From NCBI GenBank assembly GCA_016195125.1, contig JACQAD010000194.1:1-32885 (forward strand): a stretch of DNA of 32,885 nucleotides. Direction: 5' to 3'. A program made the translations under genes and the position numbers. Each line of letters opens with the position of its first letter. The stretch's first letter is position 1. Below are positions 29,549 through 32,885 of this stretch, one piece after another. Source of the stretch: Magnetospirillum sp. (GTDB taxonomy: Bacteria; Pseudomonadota; Alphaproteobacteria; Rhodospirillales; Magnetospirillaceae). A model generated the notes under the pieces. The model searched no databases. It was not told the origin of the DNA and saw nothing but the letters and a program-made list of their open reading frames with translations.

Positions 29549-31255
29549 CTAGGTGATCAGGTCGCGCACCGACTGGGTCATCTCGTCGGCGGTCTTGAAG
29601 ACGTTGGCGTTCACCGAATAGGCCTTCTGGGTCACGATCATCTTGGTGAACTGGTCGGCCAGATCCACGTTGGAGGATTCCACCGCGGCCGATTGAATCG
29701 CCGCGCCGCTGCCCTGCTTGGTGATGGAATCGATGCTCATGGTGCCCGCCTGCTCGGTGGCCCGGAACATGGTTCCCGAAATGGGATCGAGCTGGTCGGC
29801 GGACACGAAGGTCGCCACCGGAATCATGTACAGGGTGCGGGTTCGCCCATTGTTGAAATGAGCGATGACCTCACCGGTATTGGCGATATCGACGCCGTCC
29901 ATGACACCACCGGCATAGCCGTCCTGGTCGATCACCTTGATATCCAGCTTTTTACCGCTGGTCGAGGCGAATTGGGTCAGCTTCTTGGTATCGATGGTGA
30001 CGCTGTTGCTCCCCGCCCCCGCCGCCGTCCAGGTGGCCTTGAAGGCGATGCTGTCGGGACTGGAGAGGCTGCCGTCGCCGTTGAAGGTAATCGGAATCGA
30101 ATTGCCGTAAGCGGTGGTGACCCCGGCCGTGGTGGCGGTCAGGCCCGACATGGTGGCATCGGCGGCATTGGGCTGGAAACGCATAAACCACTGGCCGTTG
30201 CCCGAATGCTCGAAGGAAACCGGCAGGGTGTGGGCGTTGTAGGCCGTGTCGTAGATGGTCAGCGATTCGGCGATGGTGTTGAAAGTGGGCTGATTGGCGT
30301 TCAGGTTGATGCTGGGCGTGGTCTGCAGGGTGGGGCCCGCCGACCAGTCGATGGTCAGATCCTGATAGCCGATTCCCGAGGCCGAGGTGCTGGGCGAGGT
30401 GATCTTGCCGTTGGCATCCATGGTCACCGTCAGCGGCGTGCCGGTGATGGTGCCGACGCTGCCATCGGCCGGATTGGGAGGCAGCGAGAAATCAACCGTC
30501 CAGGTGTCCCCGCTGGCCCGTGTCCACTGCATGGTCAGCGTCTGCGCCGTCCCGAATCCGTCGGTCACCGTCGAGGTATCGGTGAAGGATTGAGGCGATA
30601 CCGTCTGGGTGGCGTTGGACGGCAGATTGGCCACCATCTGCATGGCGGTGGTGGCAACGCCGGTGATGCTCTGGCCGATATTGGCATAGACCGGGGTAAG
30701 CGCCGGAGTGGCGGTGGTCGCCGTGCTGGTGGCACTAGAGACCGGCGAACCGGCGGTGGTGTGGACACCGCCGATATTGCCCTGGGCATCGGCCTTCCAA
30801 CCCATCAGATACTGCCCACCGGCCGTGACGAAGTAGTTGTTCCCGTTCAGGGCCTTCTGCTGAAAATTACCGGCACGGGTATACAGATTCCCCGATGACC
30901 CGGTGGACGGCGCCCCGGAACTGTCGGCGGGAGCGACCACGAAGAAGCCCCGGCCGTTGATGGCCAGATCGCTCCACACCGTCGAGGTGGTGATGGTGCC
31001 CGACTTGGTGATCAGGTTGCGATCGACGGCACGCACGCCGAAAATATCCAGGCCGGAGGTTGCCGTGGCCTGGGTGGGCGAGTTGTTGGACTGGGCCGGA
31101 GCCGCATGGGATTCGGACAGCACCGTCTTGAACTGGGTGTCCTTTTCCTTGTACCCGGTCGTGTTGACGTTGGCGATGTTCTGCGAGATCGAGCCCATGG
31201 CCCAATCCATGCTTTGCATCGCCTGACTGGCGTTGGTGAAAGCCCCATAAATCAT
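29549..31255 (-). CDS. flgE: Flagellar hook protein FlgE-like
   Basis: MIYGAFTNASQAMQSMDWAMGSISQNIANVNTTGYKEKDTQFKTVL; C-term QSAAVESSNVDLADQFTKMIVTQKAYSVNANVFKTADEMTQSVRDLIT. Confidence 0.9.
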   Translation of the reverse strand: MIYGAFTNASQAMQSMDWAMGSISQNIANVNTTGYKEKDTQFKTVLSESHAAPAQSNNSPTQATATSGLDIFGVRAVDRNLITKSGTITTSTVWSDLAINGRGFFVVAPADSSGAPSTGSSGNLYTRAGNFQQKALNGNNYFVTAGGQYLMGWKADAQGNIGGVHTTAGSPVSSATSTATTATPALTPVYANIGQSITGVATTAMQMVANLPSNATQTVSPQSFTDTSTVTDGFGTAQTLTMQWTRASGDTWTVDFSLPPNPADGSVGTITGTPLTVTMDANGKITSPSTSASGIGYQDLTIDWSAGPTLQTTPSINLNANQPTFNTIAESLTIYDTAYNAHTLPVSFEHSGNGQWFMRFQPNAADATMSGLTATTAGVTTAYGNSIPITFNGDGSLSSPDSIAFKATWTAAGAGSNSVTIDTKKLTQFASTSGKKLDIKVIDQDGYAGGVMDGVDIANTGEVIAHFNNGRTRTLYMIPVATFVSADQLDPISGTMFRATEQAGTMSIDSITKQGSGAAIQSAAVESSNVDLADQFTKMIVTQKAYSVNANVFKTADEMTQSVRDLIT

Positions 31256-31385
31256 CATCGCCTCCAAACACGACGGGGATTAATCCGCCCTGGGCTATCT
31301 GCAAAGCCGAGGCCAAATGACGTTATGTTCAAAATCAATCAGTTAGACAGATGATGGGCGGCAGGACTTGCCGAACCCGACCCAC

Positions 31386-31440: not shown

Positions 31441-32586
31441 CTAGATGAAATAGGCCTTCAAGGGTTCGAAGCCGTTGAAGTTCACCGCCGAATACGAGGT
31501 GGTATAGGCGCCGGTGGACAGAATGCGCAGCTTGTCGCCGACCTTGAGGGTGACCGGCATTTCGTATCCGGCCTTCTCGTAGAGGATGTCGGCGGAATCG
31601 CAGGTGGGGCCGGCCAGAACCACCGCCGAGGTCTCGTCGCCGTCGCGCGGCGTGACGATGCGGTACTTGATGGCCTCGTCCATGGTCTCGGCCAGGCCGC
31701 CGAACTTGCCCACGTCCAGATAGACCCAGCGGGTGTCGTCGTCATAGCCCTTGCGGCTGATCAGCACCACTTCGGTCTCCAAGATCCCGGCATCGCCCAC
31801 CAGGGAGCGGCCGGGCTCGATGATCATGGCGGGAATGTTGTTGCCGAAATGGTTGGTCATGGCATCCATGACGGCGTCGGCATAGCGCTCGATGCCGTCC
31901 ACTTCCTTGCGATAGCGGGCCGGGAAGCCGCCACCCAGGTTGACCATGCGCAGTTCGATGCCGGCGGCATCCAGGGCGGAGAACAGCATGGCGGCCTTGC
32001 CCACGGCGATGTCCCATTGCCTGAGGTCGGTCTGCTGGCTGCCCACATGGAAGGACACGCCATAGGGATCGAGGCCCAGTTCGCGGGCCTTGACCAGCAG
32101 ATCCTTGGCCATGTCGATCTCGCAGCCGAACTTGCGCGACAGCGGCCACTCGGCGCCGTCGCAGGTCATCAGGATACGGCAGAACACCTTGGAGCCCGGC
32201 GCCGCCTCGGCCAGCTTGTCCAGCTCGGCCTCGGAATCGAAGGCATAGAGCCGCACGCCCTTGGCATAGGCATAGGCGATGTCCGATTGCTTCTTGATGG
32301 TGTTGCCGAAGGAGATCCGCTCGGCGGGAGCCCCGTTGGCCAGGCACAGATCGATCTCGCCCCGCGAGGCGACATCGAAGCAGGAACCCTCGCCGGTCAG
32401 CATGCGGATGATCTCGGGCGCCGGGTTGGCCTTGACCGCGTAGAACACCTGGGCCAGGGGCAGCCAGTGGCGCAGGCCCTGGTAATTGTCTCGCACCACA
32501 TCCAGGTCAACCACCACGCAGGGGGTGACCGGACGGACTTCTTCGAAAAAACGAGCGATCTTCGCGGTCATCGCGAATTCCTTCAC
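31441..32586 (-). CDS. Type III PLP-dependent ornithine/lysine decarboxylase
   Basis: VFYAVKANPAPEIIRMLTGEGSCFDVASRGEI; VNLGGGFPARY; GPTCDSADILYE. Confidence 0.93.
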   Translation of the reverse strand: MKEFAMTAKIARFFEEVRPVTPCVVVDLDVVRDNYQGLRHWLPLAQVFYAVKANPAPEIIRMLTGEGSCFDVASRGEIDLCLANGAPAERISFGNTIKKQSDIAYAYAKGVRLYAFDSEAELDKLAEAAPGSKVFCRILMTCDGAEWPLSRKFGCEIDMAKDLLVKARELGLDPYGVSFHVGSQQTDLRQWDIAVGKAAMLFSALDAAGIELRMVNLGGGFPARYRKEVDGIERYADAVMDAMTNHFGNNIPAMIIEPGRSLVGDAGILETEVVLISRKGYDDDTRWVYLDVGKFGGLAETMDEAIKYRIVTPRDGDETSAVVLAGPTCDSADILYEKAGYEMPVTLKVGDKLRILSTGAYTTSYSAVNFNGFEPLKAYFI

Positions 32587-32885
32587 GAACAGTCCGGGCC
32601 ATCAGGCAGCCGGTAAAACGACATCTGTCCGGCCCATGACACTCAAGTCACGGGACGACGGTACCTTGACGGCAATTCGGGAAGCCGTCAGATCCGCCGG
32701 GAGGTACTTCGCGTGTCGCTCCACAGCAGGGCCCATGCCTGCCCGAGCCGGAAACCGGTGTTCGCGAAGAGAGGATGGGAGTCCATCGACAGCGAGTGCC
32801 GAGTCACCACGTTCATAGCTACTTCCTCCAAGCACCGGGGGCTTTCACCCCGCTTGCACCCAGAAGACGCCTTGGACGTCGTTAC
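32587..32885 (-). promoter_or_regulatory. Structured 5' leader of the ornithine/lysine decarboxylase gene (candidate speF-type leader RNA)
   Basis: About 300 nt with several hairpins (32829-32856, 32668-32689, 32633-32654) and an SD-preceded uORF; alphaproteobacterial odc leaders are known to carry the speF motif. Confidence 0.45.
32688..32816 (-). CDS. Candidate 42-aa leader peptide/uORF upstream of the decarboxylase
   Basis: GGAGGAAGTAGCT-ATG; MNVVTRHSLSMDSHPLFANTGFRLGQAWALLWSDTRSTSRRI*. Confidence 0.45.
   Translation of the reverse strand: MNVVTRHSLSMDSHPLFANTGFRLGQAWALLWSDTRSTSRRI

Follow-up and report, generated by a model that had tools for sequence, protein, structure and literature searches.

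We propose that expression of ornithine decarboxylase (ODC) in the genome studied here and its relatives is probably governed by two gates in series: an RNA switch that would gate a short upstream open reading frame (uORF), and ribosomes at the end of this uORF that would unmask the Shine-Dalgarno sequence (SD) of the ODC gene. Judged from its sequence, the leader looks like a device by which alphaproteobacteria control polyamine synthesis through translation. Control of ODC by a leader ORF is well supported by conservation, by an in-frame codon constraint and by pairing with the ODC SD, and sensing may take place in an RNA element of the speF type instead of in the nascent peptide. All results are computational and the structures are predicted.

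The window, that is the whole stretch of 32885 bp that was analysed (contig G000:C235), carries these features at its very end on the minus strand (Table 1). As the window ends at the contig end (32885), it does not contain the leader's 5' half, which was taken from the sequences of relatives, whose leaders were gathered by DNA and protein searches. The best matches of the ODC are lysine/ornithine decarboxylases of known structure, and relatives use the same start ATG. Counted to this conserved ATG at 32571, the gap between uORF and ODC is 116 nt; the 102 nt given in the initial annotation, which was made from the sequence alone, presuppose an upstream GTG start. The 42-codon, SD-led ORF that it described was confirmed, with the peptide exactly as quoted, on the minus strand and with the strong SD TTGGAGGAAGTAGCT in front of it, as were the hairpins that it placed on both sides, namely the SD-containing stem upstream and a hairpin beginning in the stop codon downstream. 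Downstream of ODC, a 572-aa ORF (29549-31267, minus strand) appears by eye to be of the flagellar hook type (SISQNIANVNTTGYK motif).

Table 1. Features of the leader and the decarboxylase gene in the window.
Feature	Position	Strand	Remark
3' strand of the core helix of the element, GTAACGACG	32877..32885	-	partner CGCACGUGCC beyond contig end
GACGTC CAA GGCGTC	32866..32880	-	alone folds as local hairpin
Anti-SD strand, UCUUCUGGGUGC	32856..32867	-	12/12 pairs (with wobbles) with uORF SD strand
Inner stem-loop, GCGGGGUGAAAGCCCCC	32837..32853	-	between anti-SD and SD strands
uORF SD strand, GUGCUUGGAGGA	32824..32835	-	buried in 3' stem of the element (predicted)
uORF, 42 codons, MNVVTRHSLSMDSHPLFANTGFRLGQAWALLWSDTRSTSRRI	32688..32816	-	ATG at 32816, TGA ending at 32688
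Invariant CGA-AGT (Arg-Ser; both rare)	32706..32711	-	AGT in frame near uORF end across families
Last five uORF codons	32691..32705	-	complementary to ODC SD in most relatives; weak in window genome
Hairpin UGACGGC..GCCGUCA	32667..32690	-	begins inside stop codon, covarying
ODC SD, GAAGGA	32579..32584	-	
Ornithine/lysine decarboxylase (ODC; type III PLP fold)	31441..32571	-	376 aa from conserved ATG

The leaders share, below a TATATAG box, the consensus AGACG(U/C)AC..CGCACGUGCC..UGGCC...GGUU..GCAACGACG..GCGUC, followed by a variable stem, an SD and an ATG; the box adjoins the conserved block on its upstream side and ODC lies downstream of the block. RNAalifold predicted that CGCACGUGC and GCAACGACG form the core helix, in which two sequences carry a compensatory change from U-A to C-G, and in the family consensus the GGCGUC of 32866..32880 pairs with the 5' AGACG strand, which is absent from the window. 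The Rfam model of speF (RF00518) left these leaders unmatched at gathering and permissive thresholds, the window being without its 5' half, and on single leaders it gave no speF match up to E 10. A covariance model, R1, was built from 44 leaders with no RF00518 loci among them; it matches the window at 32814-32885 (E 2.7e-12, 5' end cut off) and recovers 10 of 11 RF00518 loci at E<0.01 (E 2e-5 to 7e-3; 101-kb search), at the expected positions. Since these loci lie outside its training set, the leader element is, by this homology search, a divergent relative of the speF type. The available text of Corbino et al. 2005 (PMC1273637) describes speF as an element that lies before COG0019 ODC genes and is conserved from the start site, one stem having a large insertion and another being long and bulged, and reports that no ligand was found; homospermidine is absent from the ligands listed there as tested. 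At several RF00518 loci (L113-L116) the position of the uORF ATG reads ATC, e.g. AAGAGGCACACC ATC CTT GCC, so that these loci may have a weak start or may have lost the uORF. At locus L133 a speF-type element stands directly before a fused ORF that includes a class-I glutamine amidotransferase domain; such a target gene was not expected.

The 3' stem of the element is predicted to bury the uORF SD, as UCUUCUGGGUGC pairs with GUGCUUGGAGGA in the window and UCCUUUUUGG with CCGAGAGGGA in other families. As RNAalifold on a sequence-only alignment missed this stem, a swap test was used, in which the native duplexes averaged -11.6 kcal/mol and the swapped ones -9.8 kcal/mol, and 0 of 10000 permutations reached the observed mean; this permutation test, like the one below, corrects only partly for relatedness. 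Nearly every element ends with an SD and an ATG. The ORF that follows is usually a uORF in Rhodospirillales, and in Ferrovibrio, Parvibaculum, Magnetovibrio and others the ATG of the element starts ODC itself, with an N-terminal extension of 30-70 residues. Where ODC directly follows the element in this way, an open element should mean that ODC is on, and as the uORF and fused designs should agree, we infer that uORF translation favours ODC expression. The extensions of the fused type (L068, L075, L101, L107, L102, L127, L140, L147, L150, L159, L167) are without AGT codons.

Downstream of the uORF, the hairpin that begins in the stop codon occurs in several compensated variants, including UAA..GCCGUU. 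No U-run follows it, and an intrinsic terminator between uORF and ODC was rejected for this reason. The pairing between the uORF end and the ODC SD points to a second masked ribosome-binding site: over 31 divergent leaders the final 36 nt of the uORF paired with the ODC SD at -14.1 kcal/mol when native and -11.8 kcal/mol when swapped (0/4000 permutations), and in the same swap test the stretch -60..-36 gave p 0.07 and the stretch after the stop p 0.79. Many Magnetospirillaceae leaders can form 9-15 bp directly after AGT, with both sides changing between clades, and modelled ribosome footprints clearly opened the ODC SD only for P-site positions from 30 to 0 nt ahead of the stop. A downstream SD that is masked and could be displaced by a leader ribosome, as in a translational attenuator, is thus found across the family and is weak in the window, where the pairing (-10.5) ranks 20 of 66 windows and no gain of ODC SD accessibility is predicted. 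The nearest relatives of the window pair likewise weakly, so that the downstream step is least certain there. The complementarity between uORF end and ODC SD region is exceptionally strong in three leaders (L103, L066, L080; -28 to -39 kcal/mol).

It is possible, if unlikely, that control is instead exerted on transcription, with Rho terminating the untranslated leader and uORF translation protecting it, on the model of Salmonella orf34. More than 100 nt of the long leader stay untranslated after the uORF, and the known gammaproteobacterial case joins Rho and masking of the ribosome-binding site (PMC6386406); yet the stop-codon hairpin, being without a U-run, makes intrinsic termination unlikely, and the SD pairing signal already offers a translational route.

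The uORF is kept at the same site, in the same frame and with a strong SD in about 30 Magnetospirillaceae genomes (ODCs 73-94% identical), in which it has 37-49 codons and lies 76-127 nt before ODC; this exceeds what chance would give. Indels in the aligned uORFs preserve the reading frame. A frameshift from uORF into ODC was excluded, as the distance between them varies modulo 3 among close relatives. The C-terminus QAWALLWxDVRSTS(R/K)R is common to Magnetospirillaceae and the middle of the peptide varies freely. Within the close clade the in-frame pN/pS of 0.60 compares with 0.90 and 1.47 in the shifted frames. Over all 29 uORF sequences pN/pS is only 0.83 (0.70-1.09), and 0.55 in their C-terminal third; beyond the C-terminus and the close clade, amino-acid constraint is therefore limited. 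These comparisons indicate that the uORF frame is maintained and that the peptide overall is under mild constraint.

One codon near the uORF end is tied to the frame. CGA-AGT was found in 32/32 Magnetospirillaceae uORFs, and within the last 12 uORF codons AGT is in frame in 66 of 82 sequences and out of frame in 2 and 3, AGT making up 3.2% of the serine codons in the genes of the window. With one representative per ODC cluster (18 clusters, <76% identity), AGT stands near the uORF end in 15 of them, compared with a mean of 2.1 and a maximum of 8 in 5000 shuffles; it is absent there in clusters L088, L144 and L169. As AGT is bound to the frame, which an untranslated RNA motif would not need, it is the best evidence that the uORF is probably read. 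Why AGU should be preferred over other serine codons is a guess, slow wobble decoding being our candidate. The peptide is poorly conserved outside Magnetospirillaceae; conserved across families are the element upstream, the SD, the pairing with the ODC SD and this single AGT codon, always counted in frame. The leader control of the decarboxylase suggested by the initial annotation is well supported by frame conservation, codon constraint and SD pairing.

A nascent-peptide sensor of the SpeFL/TnaC type, in which the peptide and a ligand in the exit tunnel (ornithine or a polyamine) would together arrest the ribosome near AGU or the stop and so switch ODC on, appears rather doubtful to us. The Magnetospirillaceae C-terminus QAWALLWxDVRSTS is kept with synonymous changes (its Asp position is Asp in 32/32, GAC 16 and GAT 16) and at the low C-terminal pN/pS given above, some other families end their uORFs in a common (L)GRxNPLSS, and the uORFs of the homospermidine synthase copies described below share IPE..SM. 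However, a Magnetospirillaceae peptide HMM gave no match among the uORFs of other families above shuffled decoys, so that peptide homology beyond Magnetospirillaceae was rejected, and what is kept is no amino-acid motif but a codon, AGT and not any serine codon. That the leader is an RNA structure only, an extended speF riboswitch in which the frame is a little-translated by-product, is improbable: the 5' element is strongly conserved in its nucleotides, the hairpins covary and the N-terminal uORF codons show no surplus of synonymous change, but 15/18 clusters have AGT in frame and it hardly ever occurs in the other two frames, aligned indels keep to the reading frame, and an SD with an ATG, which starts ODC in other taxa, follows nearly every element.

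The element is repeated before other polyamine genes. The window genome has three elements, before ODC in the window, before a homospermidine synthase (HSS; PDB match E 6e-154) on contig C105 and before a second type III PLP decarboxylase, ~31% identical to ODC, on contig C191. The HSS copies of this genome (L137/L153; G000:C105:2048-2156) and of relatives (L173-L191) combine the element with a 17-codon uORF, e.g. MFVTHKMGFIPEISTSM, that nearly always ends in AGT ATG TGA, and in relatives a hairpin lies again at the stop. For the HSS leaders a pairing between AGUAUGUG and CACAUAC of the 5' element was considered and rejected, as it is lost where the element reads CACACGC. The second-decarboxylase copies (L152 at G000:C191:23677-23789, L123, L155, L172, L175, L177) have a short uORF, mostly of 14-21 codons in relatives and often with the AGT ATG TGA ending; that of the window genome has AGT early only and none near its end. 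A further search in the genus and family of the window found one to four elements in each of 24/24 genomes, and 76 of 386 alphaproteobacterial genomes have an element match at E<=0.1. A weak R1 match before a spermidine synthase (L168) lies ~0.8 kb from the gene and was not counted.

Based on these data we propose that the speF-type element at the 5' end would form the first gate by hiding the uORF SD in its 3' stem, and that the signal opening it is most likely a polyamine or a polyamine precursor. Ribosomes would then enter the uORF through the opened stem. At the second gate the last codons of the uORF are able to pair with the ODC SD; on reaching or pausing at the segment from AGU to the stop, a ribosome would cover both this pairing stretch and the hairpin at the stop codon and leave the ODC SD free, so that uORF translation would turn ODC on. 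The sequences themselves show the homology of the element, the burial of the uORF SD, the kept frame, the AGU codon, the hairpin, the pairing signal across clades and the genes of the regulon; the direction of regulation, the pause at AGU and the identity of the signal are what we infer from this arrangement. The same composite leader before HSS and, in several relatives, before the second decarboxylase would make up a small polyamine regulon. More tentatively, and with low confidence, we suggest that throughout this regulon of ODC, HSS and second decarboxylase a speF-type gate acts on the uORF, that AGU decoding is a regulatory pause and that the orphan element is possibly read by homospermidine.

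For speF, an orphan candidate ever since 2005, the leader findings supply a testable mechanism, which rests on the relatives that hide the SD of the leader ORF or of ODC, on the conserved in-frame AGU and on the HSS copy. The HSS copies widen the speF regulon and suggest homospermidine as a candidate ligand. If this is true, polyamine synthesis in bacteria would have come under leader-ORF control a second time, by independent evolution. What appears novel is that a speF-type RNA is coupled to a leader ORF, that this ORF carries AGU in frame and that the arrangement extends to HSS; our literature search found no report of the uORF, and Greenlee et al. 2018, cited in PMC7266159 as updating the speF motif, may describe parts.

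The design proposed here recalls, as translation-based feedback on polyamine enzymes, the antizyme frameshift of fungi and animals (e.g. PMC4505036), which is eukaryotic and involves a frameshift of the kind excluded here. The closer likeness is to SpeFL/orf34 of gammaproteobacteria, in which a short SD-led uORF likewise precedes the ornithine decarboxylase gene. In Salmonella, translation of orf34 unfolds a structure masking the speF ribosome-binding site and blocks Rho (PMC6386406), and here too uORF translation should open the ODC ribosome-binding site, as in Salmonella and E. coli. The uORF peptide matched no Pfam family up to E 5, PF10940 (DUF2618) included, and the HIRRT core was looked for in the uORF sequences and not found, in agreement with the earlier impression that the peptide is unrelated to SpeFL; by these searches the analogy is functional, not familial. 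Unlike SpeFL/orf34, the leader precedes an ODC of a different type, has in addition an RNA element farther upstream in which the uORF SD is hidden, carries the AGU codon in place of the HIRRT core and has copies before other polyamine genes.

With RF00518 the leaders share the position upstream of COG0019 ODC in alphaproteobacteria, the start near the promoter, the core GCACGUGCC ... GCAACGACG ... followed by a long bulged stem, and recovery by R1. They differ in that Rfam's model leaves them unrecognised and in having a uORF as well as HSS and second-decarboxylase targets, which the available text of Corbino et al. 2005 (PMC1273637) does not describe. The RF00518 loci examined are also without an ATG right after the SD-like stretch.

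In translational attenuators of the ermC/cat type the downstream SD is hidden by pairing, which a ribosome on the leader ORF displaces. A leader-ORF ribosome would displace pairing over the downstream SD here too, whereas no antibiotic is involved and the SD of the leader ORF would itself be gated by a conserved RNA element.
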